60,939 nt of DNA, from NCBI GenBank assembly GCA_937922655.1, contig CALAJH010000025.1, forward strand, positions 1 through 60,939. The letters run 5' to 3'. This DNA is from an uncultured Bacteroidia bacterium. Its GTDB lineage: Bacteria; Bacteroidota; Bacteroidia; J057; CALAJH01. A program made the translations under genes and the position numbers. The notes below the pieces were generated by a model that was not told where the DNA came from, made no database searches, and was given only the letters and a program-made list of their open reading frames with translations. Below are positions 27,512 through 54,072 of this stretch, piece by piece (position 1 is the stretch's first letter; each line of letters begins with the position of its first letter).

Positions 27512-27585
27512 CAGTCCCTACAGGACTCGAACCTGTAACCGTCGGATTAGAAATCCGATGCTCTATCCGGTTGAGCTAAGGGACC
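27512..27585 (-). tRNA. tRNA-Arg (anticodon TCT)
   Basis: The minus strand folds as a 74-base cloverleaf: acceptor GGTCCCT / AGGGACT, D-arm GCTC...GAGC, anticodon stem TCGGA / TCCGA with loop TTTCTAA (anticodon TCT, reads AGA), variable loop CGGTT, T-arm ACAGG TTCGAGT CCTGT, discriminator G. CCA is not encoded. The first acceptor pair is G-U. It sits between the moxR gene and the bifunctional-nuclease gene. Confidence 0.95.
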
Positions 27586-43858: not shown

Positions 43859-44269
43859 ATGCGGAGGTTTGTCAAATATTTGGCGGCGGCGGGTACGGCG
43901 ACCGTCGTAGACGTGGCGGTGTATCAGGCGTTGGTGGCGAGCATCCTTGCCGACGGCCTGCTTGTCGCCCTGTGTCTGAGCTATACCATAGGTCTATTGA
44001 CCAACTTCATTATTAGCAAGTATTTGGTGTTTTCGGAATCGGAAACGGGAACGCGGCGCCAGTTCATGCGTTTTACCGTCGTGGCCGGTACGGTCTTTAT
44101 CGCCAACTATTATTTAATGAAACTGCTTTATCTGCTTTTGCCGCACGTGCCCGCCGGCGCGGTGGTGGAAGTATTCGGAAAACATACGACGGTACGCGGA
44201 TTTTCCGCGGCGGTCGTTGCCGTTTTAAGTTTTTTTTCCCACAAATTTTATTCTTTTTCCATTCGATGA
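43859..44269 (+). CDS. GtrA-family membrane flippase-like protein
   Basis: A 136-residue, four-helix GtrA protein: RRFVKYLAAAGTATVVDVAVYQAL, LCLSYTIGLLTNFIISKYLVFSE, QFMRFTVVAGTVFIANYYLMK, and VRGFSAAVVAVLSFFSHKFYSF. Such proteins help move polyprenyl-linked sugars across the membrane. Its stop overlaps the adhesin start (ATGA at 44266), so both are probably made from one mRNA; whether the sugar modifies that adhesin is not shown. Confidence 0.9.
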   Translation: MRRFVKYLAAAGTATVVDVAVYQALVASILADGLLVALCLSYTIGLLTNFIISKYLVFSESETGTRRQFMRFTVVAGTVFIANYYLMKLLYLLLPHVPAGAVVEVFGKHTTVRGFSAAVVAVLSFFSHKFYSFSIR

Positions 44270-47200
44270 AATTTTTAACGATATTAACGGCGCTGTTATG
44301 GGGCGTTGCGCGAGCGCAATGCGACAACGCAATTGCCGATTTTTACGCCCCGCCCGTATGCGCGGGCCAAGCCACCGTTTACGCCAACTTTTCCCAGGGT
44401 TTTTCGGCGAACGCCCTTTACGAATGGGATTACGAATCCGACGGCGCGGTGGACTTTATCGGTTTTAATCCGCCCCCCTTTACGTTTCCCGGTCCGGGCG
44501 AATACCAAACGACGCTGACGGTCGTGGACGAAAACGGTTGTACGGGCGTTGTTTTCCGTGCGGTCGACGTTCTTTCCTCCGACGTCGGGTTTTCGTTTTA
44601 CGAAAGCGTTTGCGCCGTCGACGGCCCGTTTCCGTTGGTAGGCAACGCGGCCGCGGGTGTTTTTTACGGACAATACGTTTATTCCGACGATGCGGGGGAA
44701 AACTATTATTTCGACCCGTCCGGGGCCATGGCTCCCGACGTTGTAACCATATATTACGAGGGTTACAATCAAAACCAATGTTTTTTTTCGACGTCGCGGA
44801 CGGTATACGTACAAACGCCGACAACGGCGACGATAACGGGCTTGGCGCCGAGTTATTGTACGGGGCCGGCGTGTGTGGCGTTGAACGGCTTTCCGGCGGG
44901 CGGATTTTTTTCCGGTCCGGGCGTCAGCGGCAATTTGTTTTGTCCCGGCGCGGCCGGCCCCGGTACGCACACCCTTACGTATCAAAGCGCCGGCGGCGAC
45001 GGATGCCCCTTCTTTACCTCCCGAACCGTAGTCGTGCGACAAACGCCGACGGCTCAAATTTTGGGCGCCGAATCAAGTTATTGTCCGCAGGCGCCGTGCG
45101 ACACTTTGACCGGAATTCCGGCGGGCGGAACGTTCTCCGGCCCCGGCATCATAGGCAATCGCTTTTGTCCCGCACTTGCCGGCTTGGGAACGCACACGAT
45201 TCGTTATTCGGGTAGTCAAAACGGCTGCGCTTATTTTTCGACGGTTCAAGTCACGGTAGCGGCCCCGGCGGCGACGGCCGCCATCTCGGGACTCTCCAAT
45301 CTTTATTGCTCGAATTCGCTTTGCGTGCGTATGTTCGGCACGCCCGAAGGAGGAACGTTTTCGGGCAACGGGGTGATTGGCGACCGTTTTTGTCCGGGTT
45401 CGGCGGGTCCGGGTACGCACGTCATTGGTTACACCGTTAATTTGGGCGACGGTTGCGTCGTTTCCACCACGCGTACCGTAACCGTCAATGCCGCGCCGAC
45501 GGCGACGCTTTCGGGTTTGCAAGAGATTTATTGTTTGCCCACGGCCGATTGTTCGGTTATGTCGGGAACGCCCGCCGGGGGTAATTTTACGGGTCCCGGC
45601 GTTTTGGGGGACGTGTTTTGTCCTTTGGCCGCCGGCCCCGGCACGCATACGATTCGTTACACGGGCCGGATAAACGGCTGTTCTTACGTTACGACCAAGA
45701 CGGTGGTGGTCAAGTCGCCGGTTTCGGTTTCGATTTTGGCGCCCGACCGTTTGTGCCAAACCGACGAACCCGTCGCCATCGGCGTAACCTTGCCCGGCGG
45801 CACGCTTTCCGGCCCCGGTTTGGACGACGCCGGCGTCTTCGACCCCGCCTCGCTCGCTCCCGGTTCTTATTTGTTGGCTTATACCGGCGTTTACGAAGGC
45901 TGTGCCTATCAGACGTATCGGGTAATTGAAGTGGCTCCGGCGCCCCAAACCTACGTTCTCCCCCTTGAACCCAAATATTGTCGTACGGACACGCTCATCG
46001 CCCTTGTCGGCTATCCCGTTGGCGGAACGTTCGACGGCGACGGAGTCGTTGAAATCGGCGGACAATACTTTTTCAATCCCGTTTTGGCCGAAGCCGGTTT
46101 TCACGTCTTTACTTATTCGGGAACGACGACGGACGGTTGTCCTTACACATCCTACGCCGCGACCGCAACCATCGAGCCGCCCGTCCCCCAAATTTCCAAC
46201 TTGAACCGTTATTACTGTTCGCTGGACGCTCCGGTGGTTTTGGACGTTTATCCGCCCGACGCCGAAGTGTTGGGAACGGGGTCGTTGGTCGACGGTGTGT
46301 TTTACCCCGGCGCTTTCGTCGGTTCGCACACCGTTACCGTTCGCGGATACGAATCGAATTGTTACTACGAACGCACGTTTGCCATAGACGTGGCCGTCGA
46401 ACCGGTGGTGGACATTACGGTACAACCGGGCTTCGACGGCGGCCCCGGCGTAATACGCGTACATATCTTGAACGCGGCCGTCGGCGTCGATTATTTGGTT
46501 TTGATAAACGGCGATACGGCCCATTACGGTCAGTCCGTCGAAGCTTTGGTTTTTGGGCGTCCGTCGGGATTGTATACCGTCGAAACCCGTTTGGGACAAG
46601 CCTGTTCGTTTGTCCGAACGGTAACGTTGTTGTCCCTCGACTCGAACTGTTTGCCGCCGACGAACCTGCAATTTATTGCCGCACCCGACTTTTCGGGGGG
46701 ACGGGTGCGTTGGCAAGCCTACGCGGGCGCCGAATCTTACACCGTTCGTTACCGCGAGCTCGACAATCCCAACTGGACCTACGTTAACGTTTCCGCACCC
46801 GAAATGGTTTTTCCGTCTTTGAACGCGAACGCGACTTATCGCATCGAGGTGGCGAGCGAATGTTTCAACGGCTTGACTTCGGAATTCGCGGGGTACTATT
46901 TTACTCTTTTCCCGCCACAGGCGGGTTGCGGAAATATTGCGCCGGCCGTTACGTCGGTGTACAAGACGGGGGTAACGACGGCGGGAATCACATTCACGTT
47001 GGTACAAGGGGCGATAGCCTACGAGGTACGTTACCGCGCGGGTACGCAGGGCGAATGGCAATATACGGCGAGTCCGCAAAATTCGGCGGCGTTGTTGGGT
47101 TTGACTTCGGGCTTGACGTACGAGATACAAGTACGGGCGGTGTGTTCGGACGGGGTGTTTTCACCGTGGAGTTCTCCGGCGACGTACGTGGCGTGTCCGC

Positions 47201-47742
47201 CGCCGTCGGCGACGCTTTCCGTTGTCGGAAGCATCGTTACGGCCCAATGGGCAACCTATCCGACGGCGACGGGCTACACCGTGGCGTGGCGGCTCAACGA
47301 ACCGGGCGCGGCGTGGTATCAGGTGGCTTTGCCCGCCAACGTTTCGATTTTCACCCTGCCCCAACTGCTCCCCAACCGCAATTACCTTTTCCGCATGCGG
47401 GCGCGTTGCGGTCAAATCGTTGGTTCGTGGTCGGGCGAACAAGGCTTTTCGACGACGGCGCCGGGCGGTCGCTTGGCCGCCGCATCCGTTTCCGGCGCCG
47501 AACTTTTCGTCTATCCCAATCCCAACGCGGGCGTTTTTTCGGTGCGCTTGCCCGCCGGCGCTTCAATTTTTCTCCGTCTTTTCGACATGAGCGGAAAATG
47601 CGTTGCCGCCGTCGAGCGTTCGGCCTCCGAATTTGAAACCGAAATCGAATTGGGCCGCGAACAGCCGCTGACCTCCGGCTTGTATCTTTTGCGCGGCGAA
47701 TCGTTTGAAGGCGTTTGGACGAAAAAAATCGTCGTCAAATAG
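44266..47742 (+). CDS. Large T9SS-sorted adhesin with eight Cys-containing repeats and Fn3 domains
   Basis: A 1158-residue protein with signal peptide ending GVARAQ. A PKD-like part (ALYEWDYESDGAVDFIG... PFTFPGPGEYQTTLTVVDENGC) is followed by eight modules of about 75-80 residues, each with a pattern like GTFSGPGIIGNRFCPALAGLGTHTIRY and ending GC....T.TV.V. Modules two to five have four Cys; the first and the last three have two. Three Fn3 domains follow (for example GAESYTVRYRELDNPNWTYV and GYTVAWRLNEPGAAWYQVAL). The C-terminus is a T9SS sorting domain (VYPNPNAGVFSVRL, LRLFDMSGKCVAAV, GLYLLRGESFEGVWTKKIVVK). SprB-type surface adhesins have similar layouts. A terminator follows. Confidence 0.93.
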   Translation: MKFLTILTALLWGVARAQCDNAIADFYAPPVCAGQATVYANFSQGFSANALYEWDYESDGAVDFIGFNPPPFTFPGPGEYQTTLTVVDENGCTGVVFRAVDVLSSDVGFSFYESVCAVDGPFPLVGNAAAGVFYGQYVYSDDAGENYYFDPSGAMAPDVVTIYYEGYNQNQCFFSTSRTVYVQTPTTATITGLAPSYCTGPACVALNGFPAGGFFSGPGVSGNLFCPGAAGPGTHTLTYQSAGGDGCPFFTSRTVVVRQTPTAQILGAESSYCPQAPCDTLTGIPAGGTFSGPGIIGNRFCPALAGLGTHTIRYSGSQNGCAYFSTVQVTVAAPAATAAISGLSNLYCSNSLCVRMFGTPEGGTFSGNGVIGDRFCPGSAGPGTHVIGYTVNLGDGCVVSTTRTVTVNAAPTATLSGLQEIYCLPTADCSVMSGTPAGGNFTGPGVLGDVFCPLAAGPGTHTIRYTGRINGCSYVTTKTVVVKSPVSVSILAPDRLCQTDEPVAIGVTLPGGTLSGPGLDDAGVFDPASLAPGSYLLAYTGVYEGCAYQTYRVIEVAPAPQTYVLPLEPKYCRTDTLIALVGYPVGGTFDGDGVVEIGGQYFFNPVLAEAGFHVFTYSGTTTDGCPYTSYAATATIEPPVPQISNLNRYYCSLDAPVVLDVYPPDAEVLGTGSLVDGVFYPGAFVGSHTVTVRGYESNCYYERTFAIDVAVEPVVDITVQPGFDGGPGVIRVHILNAAVGVDYLVLINGDTAHYGQSVEALVFGRPSGLYTVETRLGQACSFVRTVTLLSLDSNCLPPTNLQFIAAPDFSGGRVRWQAYAGAESYTVRYRELDNPNWTYVNVSAPEMVFPSLNANATYRIEVASECFNGLTSEFAGYYFTLFPPQAGCGNIAPAVTSVYKTGVTTAGITFTLVQGAIAYEVRYRAGTQGEWQYTASPQNSAALLGLTSGLTYEIQVRAVCSDGVFSPWSSPATYVACPPPSATLSVVGSIVTAQWATYPTATGYTVAWRLNEPGAAWYQVALPANVSIFTLPQLLPNRNYLFRMRARCGQIVGSWSGEQGFSTTAPGGRLAAASVSGAELFVYPNPNAGVFSVRLPAGASIFLRLFDMSGKCVAAVERSASEFETEIELGREQPLTSGLYLLRGESFEGVWTKKIVVK

Positions 47743-49628: not shown

Positions 49629-50675
49629 ATGTTCGACGCCCTTTTTTATACGGCGTGTGTTTGTGCGTGGGCCGGCGAAATCGTTACGCTTGCAGGATGG
49701 ATTAAATTTTCGGCGACGCGAAAAGCTTCGAACGAACGCCCGCGTTTTTCCGTCGTCGTTTGTTTTCACAACGAAATCAAGGTCGTCGAACGCTGTTTAA
49801 CGGCCTTGGCCGCGTTGGACTATCCCGACTTTGAGTACGTTTTGGTAGACGACCGCTCCACCGACGGCACGACCGAACGACTCAAAGCGTGGGTGCAAAA
49901 CCGTTCCAACGCCAAATACGTCCGTGTGGAAAGCGTCGAGTTTTCGCCGAAAAAGCAGGCGTTGTTGGCGGGGGCGAGGGCGGCCGACGGAGAATGGCTT
50001 GCGCTTACCGACGCCGACTGCGCCCCGCCCCCTCATTGGTTGCACGCCCTTGCCCGAGCCGTTCGTCGGGGCAAGCCCGTCGTCGTCGGTTACTCGCCTT
50101 ACCTTGTAAAACCGGGATTGTTGGGTTTTTTTATTCGTCATGAAACGGAAAAAACGGCGTTGGAATATTTGGGCAGGGCGGCTTTGGGTTGGAATTACAT
50201 GGCCGTCGGACGCAACATGGCCGTCAAGCGTCAAACGTTGTTGGACGACGGTTTTCGCGGGCATCGAAATCGCTTGTCGGGTTCGGACGATTTATTGGTG
50301 CGGCGCCACGCGGCGGCGCCGTGCGTCGAGGCGCAGGCGCCGACATTGCCGCCGCAAAACCTCATGCAATGGTGGAACCAAAAGACGCGTCATGTTTCCG
50401 CCTCCTCCGGTTATTCTTTGGCGACCCAAACGGCTTTGTTCGTTTTCCACGCGGGACGCTTTGCTTTATGGTTTTCGGCTTTGGCGTACGGCCGTTGGGA
50501 AGGATTGGTTGTGTTTTGGACTTTACAAACGCTATTGTATTTTGTTGCAAAAAAATTTTTATCTTTGCATCCAAATATTCTCTTTTTGGCTTTCTTTGAC
50601 AGTTTGCTGATTATTTATCAAATGACGGTGGTTCCGGCGGGAAGGCTGCGCAGGCCGATATGGAAAAAGATTTGA
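49629..50675 (+). CDS. Glycosyltransferase family 2 protein, membrane-anchored
   Basis: A 348-residue GT2 enzyme. An N-terminal hydrophobic stretch (FDALFYTACVCAWAGEIVTLAGWI) precedes the GT-A domain: RFSVVVCFHNEIKVVERCLTALAALDYP, EYVLVDDRSTDGTTERL, ALTDADCAPPPHWL (DxD as DAD), GSDDLLVRRHAA, then Q..QQ-like NLMQWWNQKTRHVSA (Q/RxxRW-like). C-terminal membrane helices follow (ALFVFHAGRFALWFSALAYG, FFDSLLIIYQMTV). It overlaps the sigma-factor start by 16 bases. The substrate is unknown. Confidence 0.9.
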   Translation: MFDALFYTACVCAWAGEIVTLAGWIKFSATRKASNERPRFSVVVCFHNEIKVVERCLTALAALDYPDFEYVLVDDRSTDGTTERLKAWVQNRSNAKYVRVESVEFSPKKQALLAGARAADGEWLALTDADCAPPPHWLHALARAVRRGKPVVVGYSPYLVKPGLLGFFIRHETEKTALEYLGRAALGWNYMAVGRNMAVKRQTLLDDGFRGHRNRLSGSDDLLVRRHAAAPCVEAQAPTLPPQNLMQWWNQKTRHVSASSGYSLATQTALFVFHAGRFALWFSALAYGRWEGLVVFWTLQTLLYFVAKKFLSLHPNILFLAFFDSLLIIYQMTVVPAGRLRRPIWKKI

Positions 50676-51265
50676 AGCCGTCCGCTCGAGCGGATGAAGA
50701 CAAGGCGATTATCGCACGCATCATCGACGGCGACGACAAAGCCTTTGAATCCTTGGTGCAAAAATACCGCAAGTCGGTGTATTATTTGGTGTTCAAAATC
50801 GTGCGTAACGCCGACGATGCCGAAGACCTAACCCAAGATTCATTCGTCAAGGCTTATTCTTTTATTCATAAGTTCGACCCGAAGTATGCATTTTCCACAT
50901 GGCTGTTTAAAATCGCAACCAACAACTGCATTGATTTTATCCGCCGACGCAAAATGCAGACCCTTTCCATTGATTCGCCTCAAAATTTTGACGACGGCTC
51001 CCCGCTCTACATCCAAATTCAAGACCGGGGACCGTTGCCTTCCGACAGCCTGCTGCTTAAAGAACGAAGAGAAATATTGACGGTGGCGATAGAACGCTTG
51101 CCCGAACGCTATCGCAATCTTTTGCATATGCGCTATTTTGACGAACTAAGCTACGAGGAGGTGGCCGAACGGCTCCGGCTTCCGATGGGCACCATCAAAG
51201 CCCAGCTCCATCGCGCCCGCGAACTGCTTTTTTCCGAAATAGCGGGTATACAAAAAAATTTATGA
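50660..51265 (+). CDS. ECF-type RNA polymerase sigma factor
   Basis: A 201-residue sigma-70 family protein. Region 2 is visible in KAIIARIIDGDDKAFESLVQKYRKSVYYLVFKIVRNADDAEDLTQDSFVKAYSFIHKFDPKYAFSTWLFKIATNNCIDFIRRRK; region 4 in ERLPERYRNLLHMRYFDELSYEEVAERLRLPMGTIKAQLHRARELL. No anti-sigma gene is adjacent. The sequence type is widespread in Bacteroidota; P. gingivalis SigP, the PorX partner, is an ECF factor too, but I cannot say that this is its ortholog. It is coupled to the GT2 gene by overlap and lies about 65 bases before the repeat-rich protein gene. Confidence 0.92.
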   Translation: MEKDLKPSARADEDKAIIARIIDGDDKAFESLVQKYRKSVYYLVFKIVRNADDAEDLTQDSFVKAYSFIHKFDPKYAFSTWLFKIATNNCIDFIRRRKMQTLSIDSPQNFDDGSPLYIQIQDRGPLPSDSLLLKERREILTVAIERLPERYRNLLHMRYFDELSYEEVAERLRLPMGTIKAQLHRARELLFSEIAGIQKNL

Positions 51266-51330
51266 CCTATATTCTTTCACCGCCGTCCGACGTTTCGGGC
51301 AACGAACCGACGGCGCTCTAAAAACATTTT

Positions 51331-52923
51331 ATGGGTTTTTTGGATATCTTTAAATCCAAGTCCAAAGAAAGCGGCGACAAGACCCTTTCCCTCATTGTTT
51401 TCGACTTGGATTCCCTTGGCCACGAACTTCCCGACCTCAAATTTTTGGCGGGACGCAGCCAAGTAATTTTTTGGTTGTTTTATCGCAGGCCCGTGCCGCA
51501 TCTTCAAAAGCGGCTCTCGGAATACGGGCGTGTCGAGAGCTTTGACGAAGAAAAAGGGCGCACGCTCGAATTGATTGTCGGATACGAACTCGGCCACAAT
51601 CCCAACTACAAAGAGGTCGTGTTGGTGACGGCCGAAGGGAAAAAAGAAGGATTGCAGTCGTTTTTTAAGGACAAAGGGATAAATTTTCAGCATATGCGTA
51701 CGGGAGTGCGGATACAGCCAAAACGCGAATCGATGGCGCGTCCCGAAGCCTCCAAATCCCGTGTGCCGGAACCCCTCGTCAAAAACGGTTCGCGCAACGT
51801 TTCGAGTGGGGTGGCGGCGCGTCCCGACCCTCTCGGCAAACCCATGCGTCAAAACGAACCAAAGTCCGGAGGATTGCGCCCCGACCCCGCATTGGACCGA
51901 AGCGCTCCCGACCGCGGCGATTTGCGTCTTGACCCCCGTCAGATGCGCAGCGAGCCAAAGACGGCGGCGCATCACGACGCGCCGGTTGCCCCGCGTCAGG
52001 AACGGATTTCGCCACCCCAACCGGCGCGTCAAGAACGCTACGACGCGCCGGTTGCCCCGCGTCAGGAACGGGTTTCGCCGCCCCAACCCCCGCGTCAAGA
52101 ACGCTTCGACGCGCCGGTTGCCCCGCGTCAGGAACGGATTTCACCGCCACAACCGGCGCGTCAAGAACGCTTCGACGCGCCGGTTGTCCCGCGTCAAGAA
52201 CGGGTTTCGCCGCCGCAACCCCCGCGTCAGGAACGCTACGGTCAAGATTACGAACCCGTTTACCCCTCCCGAAACGACGATTTCTATTCGCGTCCCATAA
52301 CCGAACCCGAACCTTTTTGGGATGAAAGCGGCAAATCGTTGCCGTTTACCAACGAAGACGACTATCGTACCGGAAGCGAGGAATTTGTGGAACCGGATTT
52401 TTACGCCACCCCGCGCATGGAACCGGGCAAGCCTTCGCGTCCCAAACGCGAAGAATTCGACGACGCACCCGCCTACGCCGCCCCGCGCATGGAACCGGCC
52501 AAACAGCCGGTGGCGTTAAAACCGATTCCGCATCAGGATGTACGGATGGGCGGAGAGACCTTGCCTCCTCTCGACCCAATGCGCAAACACAAGCCGCTTG
52601 CCGGCGAGTACGTGCCGTCGGAAGAAGATTTTGTCAAAATATCCCACCATTTCGCGATAAACTTTTTGGTCGGCAACACTTATCTTAAAAGTTTTTTGGG
52701 TATGGCCATCAACCAAGCTACGGGTAAAACCGTACAAGAGATTTTTGTTTCCAAAGGGGTAAAGCCGGTTTTTGCTTTTTTGGTCAAGACGGGCTACTTG
52801 GAAGAGGTGGACAACCAAAATTTCCGGGTTTTGGCATGCCCTACGGCGGAGACGTTTATAGAAGCACGCAACTACGCTTCGAGTCTTATGCCCGAACCCG
52901 CCGTTCGACCGCAAAATCGTTAA
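51331..52923 (+). CDS. PIN/NYN-like protein with long disordered repeat linker
   Basis: A 530-residue protein of unusual build. The first 125 residues look like a folded alpha/beta domain: LSLIVFDLDSLG, QVIFWLFYRRPVPHLQKRLSEYGRVESFDEEKGRTLELIVGYELG, VVLVTAEGKKEGLQSFFKDKGINFQH, whose order recalls PIN/NYN-type nuclease domains. Residues about 130-440 are Pro/Arg/Glu-rich and probably disordered, including four perfect 22-residue repeats (DAPVAPRQER[I/V]SPPQP[A/P]RQER[Y/F]). The last 90 residues are folded again, with EEDFVKISHHFAINFLVGNTYLKSFLGMAINQATG and LVKTGYLEEVDNQNFRVL. No known family covers the whole. It follows an ECF sigma gene and precedes a WG-repeat gene by 12 bases. Confidence 0.8.
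   Translation: MGFLDIFKSKSKESGDKTLSLIVFDLDSLGHELPDLKFLAGRSQVIFWLFYRRPVPHLQKRLSEYGRVESFDEEKGRTLELIVGYELGHNPNYKEVVLVTAEGKKEGLQSFFKDKGINFQHMRTGVRIQPKRESMARPEASKSRVPEPLVKNGSRNVSSGVAARPDPLGKPMRQNEPKSGGLRPDPALDRSAPDRGDLRLDPRQMRSEPKTAAHHDAPVAPRQERISPPQPARQERYDAPVAPRQERVSPPQPPRQERFDAPVAPRQERISPPQPARQERFDAPVVPRQERVSPPQPPRQERYGQDYEPVYPSRNDDFYSRPITEPEPFWDESGKSLPFTNEDDYRTGSEEFVEPDFYATPRMEPGKPSRPKREEFDDAPAYAAPRMEPAKQPVALKPIPHQDVRMGGETLPPLDPMRKHKPLAGEYVPSEEDFVKISHHFAINFLVGNTYLKSFLGMAINQATGKTVQEIFVSKGVKPVFAFLVKTGYLEEVDNQNFRVLACPTAETFIEARNYASSLMPEPAVRPQNR
51976..52239 (+). repeat. Four 66-bp tandem repeats inside the PIN-like gene
   Basis: Four direct units of exactly 66 bp (51976-52041, 52042-52107, 52108-52173, 52174-52239) encode 22-residue repeats. 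Units one and three carry ISPPQPA, units two and four VSPPQPP, so the array is two copies of a 132-bp pair. Few bases differ between units, which suggests recent duplication. Confidence 0.95.
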
Positions 52924-52935
52924 ATTTTCGCTTAT

Positions 52936-54072
52936 ATGCTTGCACCCGTTGTTTTTGCAATATGGATAACGTCCTTGGCGGTTGCGCGGGGATGGGGGCA
53001 AAACCCCGGACCGCTGGCGCCGGCCAAAGTGGGCGGCCACTTCGGTTTCATCGATACGTCGGGCATAGCGATAATACCTCATCGCTTGGCGCTGGGCCAG
53101 TTGGCGTTTCGTGAGGGCATGACCGACATGCGCGACGCCGAAGGACGTTGGGGCTTTATTACCGCCGTCGGTGCAGAGGCCGTAGCCCCCACCTTTGACG
53201 ACGTGGAATTTTTTTCGGAGGGCCTTTGCGTTGTTAAAAGGGATGGGCGTTATCAATACGTGGACAAAAACGGTGGCCGTCCGTTTGAATTGGATTTTGA
53301 CGCGGCGGGGCCGTTTCGAGAAGGCAAGGCCGTCGTTCAAATCGGTTCGTTGTGGGGGTTTATCGACAAAACGGGAAAAACGCTCTTCGAGCCGACGTTC
53401 GACGACGCGCTTTATTTTTCCGAAGGGTTTGTGCCGGTCAAAAAAGGAGGGAAGTGGTCGGCCGTAGACGCTTCGGGCCGTCCCGTGGCGCCGTTTGATT
53501 TCGAGGAGTTTTATCCCTTTCGCAATGGACGCGCCAAAGTCAAAAAAAACGGCTTGTACGGCGTGATAAACCCAAGCGGCAAATTCGTTTTGGCGGCCAA
53601 ATACGAAGAATTGACCGACTTTGACGAAACGGGACATTGCGGCGCGAAGTTGGACGGGCGTTGGGGAATCGTCGATACGTCGGGCCAATCGACGGCGCCT
53701 TTTGTTTACGACGGGCTTTTACCGCCACGCTCGGGAACGTTCGCGGTGTTAAAGTTGCGTCCGAACAAAAATCGTACGGACTCGCTGTGGGGCGTGGTTT
53801 CGGCAAAAGGCGCCATTATGTTGTCTTACGATTATTCACGACCGCCCGAATACGGCGACGGAATGTTTTTAATCTATCAAAACGGCCTTTACGGTTATAC
53901 CAACGAGCTGGGTGTGGTACAAATAGCTCCGCGTTTTGCGGAGGCGCGACCGTTTTCCTTCGGATTGGCCGCCGTAAAAGAAAAGGACTTGTGGGGTTAC
54001 ATCGACCGTACGGGGCGCTACAAAATCGAACCGAAGTATGAAAACGCGGGCAGTTTTGCGCTTACGGAGTAG
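52936..54072 (+). CDS. WG-repeat protein
   Basis: A 378-residue protein with signal peptide (VVFAIWITSLAVARGWGQ). It has about eight WG-type repeats such as GHFGFIDTSGIAIIP, GRWGFITAVGAEAVAPTFDDV, SLWGFIDKTGKTLFEPTFDDA, GLYGVINPSGKFVLAAKYEEL, GRWGIVDTSGQSTAPFVYDGL and DLWGYIDRTGRYKIEPKYENA. WG repeats are structural modules with no set enzyme activity. The gene starts 12 bases after the PIN-like gene and its end overlaps the opposite-strand NAD(P)HX repair gene by 11 bases. Confidence 0.93.
   Translation: MLAPVVFAIWITSLAVARGWGQNPGPLAPAKVGGHFGFIDTSGIAIIPHRLALGQLAFREGMTDMRDAEGRWGFITAVGAEAVAPTFDDVEFFSEGLCVVKRDGRYQYVDKNGGRPFELDFDAAGPFREGKAVVQIGSLWGFIDKTGKTLFEPTFDDALYFSEGFVPVKKGGKWSAVDASGRPVAPFDFEEFYPFRNGRAKVKKNGLYGVINPSGKFVLAAKYEELTDFDETGHCGAKLDGRWGIVDTSGQSTAPFVYDGLLPPRSGTFAVLKLRPNKNRTDSLWGVVSAKGAIMLSYDYSRPPEYGDGMFLIYQNGLYGYTNELGVVQIAPRFAEARPFSFGLAAVKEKDLWGYIDRTGRYKIEPKYENAGSFALTE

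Follow-up and report, generated by a model that had tools for sequence, protein, structure and literature searches.

A small Bacteroidota protein family joining a NYN-like domain to a predicted winged helix through a disordered linker of variable length

LOTUS-domain proteins nucleate ribonucleoprotein (RNP) granules in animal germ cells; to our knowledge, their bacterial relatives have been little studied. Bacterial proteins that combine a NYN domain with an OST-HTH domain have been predicted to be RNases whose winged helix binds RNA; the hallmark of OST-HTH is an insert of helical structure that separates its helices 2 and 3, and structure 2qip was used to define the bacterial DUF88/LK-nuclease (PMC2848206). 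The NYN domain of MARF1 carries a patch of four Asp residues; SMG5 lacks these four residues and has no RNase activity (PMC6294520). The reference NYN proteins used here for comparison have seven nearly invariant acidic positions, including D12 and D14 in strand 1, D76 and D82 in a helix and D101/D103 after strand 4. In Bacteroides Rho, a charged disordered region of about 300 residues drives RNA-dependent condensation (PMC13269538).

The window analysed here is the whole of a 60,939-nucleotide stretch from an uncultured Bacteroidia bacterium (contig CALAJH010000025.1). One of its genes encodes a two-ended protein, the features of which, with the flanking genes, are as follows (lineages are designated by f numbers).

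50660–51265, forward strand: ECF sigma-70 gene, the upstream neighbour, 65 nt before the gene described here
51331–52923, forward strand: whole gene, NYN-like/disordered linker/winged-helix protein of 530 residues (ORF calling, homologs, AlphaFold2)
51331–51351, forward strand: motif M[GA]hF.[FIL], here MGFLDIF, kept in 7/8 members of the order/f77 branch
51379–51705, forward strand: alpha/beta Rossmann-like, NYN/DUF88-like domain, residues about 17–125 (AlphaFold2, VIA-align, profile comparisons)
51403–51411, forward strand: D25-L-D27 at the end of strand 1, the sole NYN-type acidic pair still conserved (alignment)
51706–52620, forward strand: disordered linker, residues 126–430, about 305 residues (AlphaFold2, composition)
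51974–52240, forward strand: in-frame tandem repeat, 66 bp × 4, 90% matches
52621–52887, forward strand: winged-helix domain, residues 431–519 (AlphaFold2, Foldseek, VIA-align, homologs)
52936–54072, forward strand: WG-repeat gene, the downstream neighbour, 12 nt after the gene described here

The closest described proteins are those of the LabA-like type, which combine DUF88/LK-nuclease NYN (PF01936) with OST-HTH (PF12872). The window family shares with them D-x-D in strand 1, a linker and a C-terminal winged helix, and probably an N-terminal alpha/beta domain of the PIN-superfamily-like kind; a short predicted helix lies where OST-HTH has its insert. Unlike them, the window family lacks the strand-4 and middle catalytic acids and has no Pfam NYN or OST-HTH match, its linker reaches 305 residues where theirs is short, and it carries an N-terminal MGxFxF motif. 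NYN plus OST-HTH proteins occur in f3, a sister family in the same order as the window, where most genomes have them. A PIN-like domain without catalytic acids is also found in eukaryotic SMG5, the PIN domain of which is non-catalytic (PMC6294520); its context and domain architecture are unrelated, and no SMG5-type function is implied for the window protein. Like Rho of B. thetaiotaomicron (PMC13269538), the window protein has a charged region of about 300 residues, predicted to be disordered, in an otherwise folded protein, with no known sequence relation between the two. The family is undescribed, yet its layout is a variant of the known NYN plus winged-helix arrangement. We tentatively read the family protein as quite possibly a nuclease-dead, strongly diverged relative of the NYN/DUF88 (LabA-like) plus OST-HTH proteins that serves as an RNA-binding (RNP) scaffold and not as a nuclease.

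The open reading frame at 51331–52923 (+) starts with ATG and is a real gene, as other genomes hold full-length homologs with the same layout. The AlphaFold2 model consists of a folded N-domain, a low-confidence middle and a folded C-domain; together with the homologs, it bears out the two-ended protein proposed in the first-pass annotation. An antisense ORF of 273 residues (51277–52098, −) runs across the GC-rich repeat region of the gene and has no signs of coding. No match to the 530-residue protein was obtained in Pfam, NCBIfam or PADLOC, and no defence-system match was found. A search of 60 related genomes gave homologs in five other genomes of the window's order, and profile searches brought in G007 as the seventh member from the order, together with one f77 genome (G335) and nine f50 genomes. 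The carriers are thus 17 genomes including that of the window, the others being 16 sampled Bacteroidota genomes. Sampling of 395 genomes across the phylum gave no further convincing member, and the distribution of the family is therefore narrow. A scan of named genomes produced one record with a homolog (Bacteroidetes MAG JAHBTG010000010.1), the window's own protein retrieving none as query, and no viral relatives were found.

The N- and C-domains are linked in all order and f77 members, that is in 7/22 genomes of the order (G000–G021) plus f77; homologs with both ends joined, on which the first-pass annotation had made its proposal depend, therefore exist. The f50 N-domain is clearly homologous to the N-domain set of the order (hhalign profile–profile comparison, 98.5%, 2e-15). 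The f50 C-terminal tail resembles a winged helix, and its homology to the C-domain of the order is only weakly indicated (hhalign score 18.4, p 0.011). As judged from sequence, these proteins form an undescribed, unnamed small Bacteroidota family that current annotation libraries do not contain. The earlier statement that the linker and the C-terminal domain match no known family stands with respect to curated sequence families and falls with respect to fold, as the C-domain is by its predicted fold an ordinary winged helix.

The linker was predicted to be disordered, with pLDDT almost entirely below 50 over residues 126–422, and its composition (P 19%, R 12%, E 9%, D 7%) and length of 305 residues agree with the Pro/Arg/Glu-rich disordered segment of about 300 residues noted initially. 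The 66 bp repeat encodes DAPVAPRQER[IV]SPPQP[AP]RQER[YF], and its copies are distinguished by changes in ten codons, of which six are silent. Linker length is 305 residues in the window, 293 in f5, 78–88 in f6 and about 50 in f2, and the linker is nearly gone in the f50 member L036. When homologs were compared by linker, both ends were kept over the whole range, from 305 down to roughly 15 residues. Linker composition also differs by lineage: Pro and Arg characterise that of the window, whereas f6 has an Arg-rich linker, f5 one of Lys/Glu and f2 one rich in Lys.

The C-domain was modelled with a pLDDT of about 88–96 over most of residues 431–519 in the full-length prediction, and with a pLDDT of 92 and a pTM of 0.81 when predicted alone from eight sequences. 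Its predicted topology, H-E-H-h-H-E-E-H (alpha-beta-alpha-alpha-alpha-beta-beta-alpha), identifies it with high confidence as a winged helix; the domain previously described as helical is thus folded, but of mixed alpha-beta type. The best structural matches were the winged helices of MCM, cullin WHB, Rok and KIN17 (best Z 6.0) and, the winged helix being a common fold, they name no family for the domain. A five-residue helix (46–50) lies between helices 2 and 3, before the recognition helix, at the site of the OST-HTH insert, for which the criterion is at least two helical turns. Weak Foldseek matches included Cdc6/ORC and Oskar LOTUS (5a49, E 0.61), the latter not being among the 50 VIA-align matches listed. 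Pfam OST-HTH (PF12872) had no match to the family C-domains, and assignment to OST-HTH by sequence was rejected (hhalign scores 8.6–12.5, with no detectable LOTUS similarity).

The N-domain (residues 17–125) was predicted from six sequences with block pLDDT of about 55–85, the model showing a Rossmann-like beta-alpha domain at residues 19–123. Foldseek gave no match at E ≤ 0.001, the best being thiamine pyrophosphokinase at 1.9e-3. With VIA-align the model matched the Vibrio DUF88/NYN structure 2qip over residues 12–128 (Z 8.2, 113 residues), a score tied with hydrogenase, photolyase and USP folds. A family profile of 16 N-domain sequences scored 19.3–24.8 against four NYN sets from related genomes, compared with 15.3 for HAD, 12.8 for PIN and 11.3 for USP, and none of 22 unrelated neighbourhood families exceeded 18.9; none of 40 column-permuted NYN sets reached any of the four real NYN scores. 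Taken alone, the link to NYN was not significant (hhalign probability at most 12%), and the similarity was local, peaking in strand 4/helix 4, a motif common to many Rossmann-like folds. In global hhalign, an in-register full-length alignment was obtained only with the combined NYN set (16.2, p 0.004), HAD being second (12.1), and in a class search the N-profile of the order retrieved a genuine NYN protein (E 3.5e-4). No Pfam NYN (PF01936) match was found in any of the 16 members at E up to 10, and a PDB sequence search with the N- and C-domain profiles gave no relevant match. The N-domain is therefore NYN-like and probably related to NYN, with membership unproven and a link that is weak but above every alternative compared; we place moderate confidence in its descent from NYN/DUF88. 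Of the PIN/NYN-like N-terminus suggested at the outset, the best profile match among all controls and a compatible fold are retained, while 2qip itself is tied with other Rossmann-like folds.

Numerous Rossmann folds score as well as 2qip, and it is possible, though unlikely, that the N-domain is another Rossmann-like domain (HAD-like, USP-like or a CARF-type sensor) joined to a DNA-binding winged helix in a ligand-sensing or transcriptional regulator. The strand-1 sequence FDLD is similar to motif I of HAD, the CARF-HTH protein 8y75 is among the VIA-align matches (Z 6.8), the C-domain of one f50 member weakly matches a CARF-wHTH profile (E 0.032), and MCM and further winged helices linked to DNA are among the best fold matches of the C-domain. 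However, the HAD, PIN and USP profiles all score under NYN, and the N-domain has only about 105 residues, is modelled without the HAD flap/cap strands and has no conserved Lys/DD motifs. When the HAD set (DxDxT motif I, motifs II–IV and flap/cap) was looked for in the family, only D-x-D was present. The gene context is also not conserved, unlike the expectation for a local regulator.

The N-terminal motif suggests a different role, which we consider distinctly unlikely, as a membrane-tethered or protein–protein adaptor in which the MGxFxF peptide docks on a membrane or partner and neither domain binds nucleic acid. The motif is specific to the family, with a single outside match, to an FtsY-like protein, among about 200 neighbourhood ORFs; FloA lies downstream in f2, and winged helices can bind protein, as in the cullin WHB-like matches. 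Yet the motif is missing from the f50 branch and FloA is a neighbour only in f2. An amphipathic membrane helix was rejected for the motif, the hydrophobic moment of which is not above background except in f8. The sole non-family match (L052:15540–16520, G008), assigned to FtsY by eye only, starts MGLFDFFKK.

The acidic residues were compared with those of NYN. D25 and D27 align with D12 and D14, reproduce the D-x-[DE] feature at the end of strand 1 and are acidic in 15/16 members at each position; the f77 member has Gln at D25. Position 86 is likewise acidic in 15/16. The strand-4 Asp pair (S[GS]DxDF), which shows little or no variation across all the reference NYN proteins, is lost in 16/16 aligned members. 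The middle-helix Asp is present in 8/8 f50 members and in 1/8 of the order/f77 branch, the alignment there being uncertain, and is missing from the window's own order, including the window protein. The acidic set is thus only partly kept, through D25 and D27, in agreement with the first-pass annotation. Catalysis is unlikely because of the losses in strand 4 and, in the window's order, in the middle helix, and comparison with the MARF1 patch and inactive SMG5 makes it likely that activity has been lost, above all in the window protein. A non-canonical NYN/PIN ribonuclease that is active through D25/D27 with non-equivalent acids (E86, or E/D-E/D-D in f50) would fit the near-constant acidity of D25, D27 and E86 and the three middle acidic residues kept in f50 (8/8), but is very improbable given the strand-4 and middle losses and the Gln in f77. 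The window's genome also has one separate, genuine NYN protein of 338 residues with the strand-4 DxD intact (L080, G000:C5:137471–137734).

The family protein is more likely to bind or organise RNA than to cut it. Computation gave the two-ended architecture, a disordered linker of varying length, the fold of the winged helix and the loss of the strand-4 acids, and from them we infer RNA as the ligand and a scaffold role. As an RNA-binding scaffold, the protein would retain the arrangement for binding RNA but would not cleave it: its NYN-like domain and winged helix would each serve as a binding module, and the charged disordered linker between them would add reach and weak multivalent contacts and tolerate large changes in length. 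It might then act on RNA as a tether or scaffold, perhaps close to the maturation of ribosomes or tRNA. If this is true, a dead-nuclease two-module family with a long linker offers a simple test of RNA scaffolding by bacterial NYN-wHTH proteins. The analysis also sets a boundary for a family that is missing from present annotation libraries.

The immediate neighbours of the gene vary by lineage. The sigma/WG context occurs only in the window's lineage among those examined, and the proposed unit with the ECF sigma and WG-repeat genes was not upheld, as neither recurs beside homologs; an operon with them was rejected on the same ground. By Pfam, the neighbours are Era in f50, TrmD in f77, SUI1 and RsmE in f8 (clustered on the same strand, the gap to SUI1 being 12 nt), a convergent GluQRS-like tRNA synthetase in f6, QueF and FloA in f2 and Ig/FtsX-type proteins in f5. 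An RNA-modification or translation gene lies within two genes of the family gene in 5/7 lineages (binomial p about 0.003–0.05, depending on the assumed background); as the category was picked with the data already in view, this enrichment is only a hint, and the tie to RNA is suggestive and post hoc.

No OST-HTH domain scored above the cut-off in any of the 17 family-bearing genomes. NYN-OST-HTH proteins occur in 0/17 of these and in 13/24 other genomes (Fisher p 1.5e-4 by genome, 0.25 by family), and in view of the latter value the complementary distribution may reflect phylogeny alone. The family may replace NYN-OST-HTH in its carriers, or the pattern may be only phylogenetic. A bolder version, in which an undescribed Bacteroidota scaffold organises RNPs in place of NYN-LOTUS by combining a dead NYN domain with a LOTUS-like winged helix and a multivalent linker that evolves fast, is quite improbable.

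Elsewhere in the window, a tRNA gene at 27512–27585 (−) was the sole Rfam match. The product of 44266–47739, 1157 residues long, contains fibronectin III domains and carries a type IX (Por) secretion signal at its C-terminus, and a similar protein is encoded in G004 near its family homolog.
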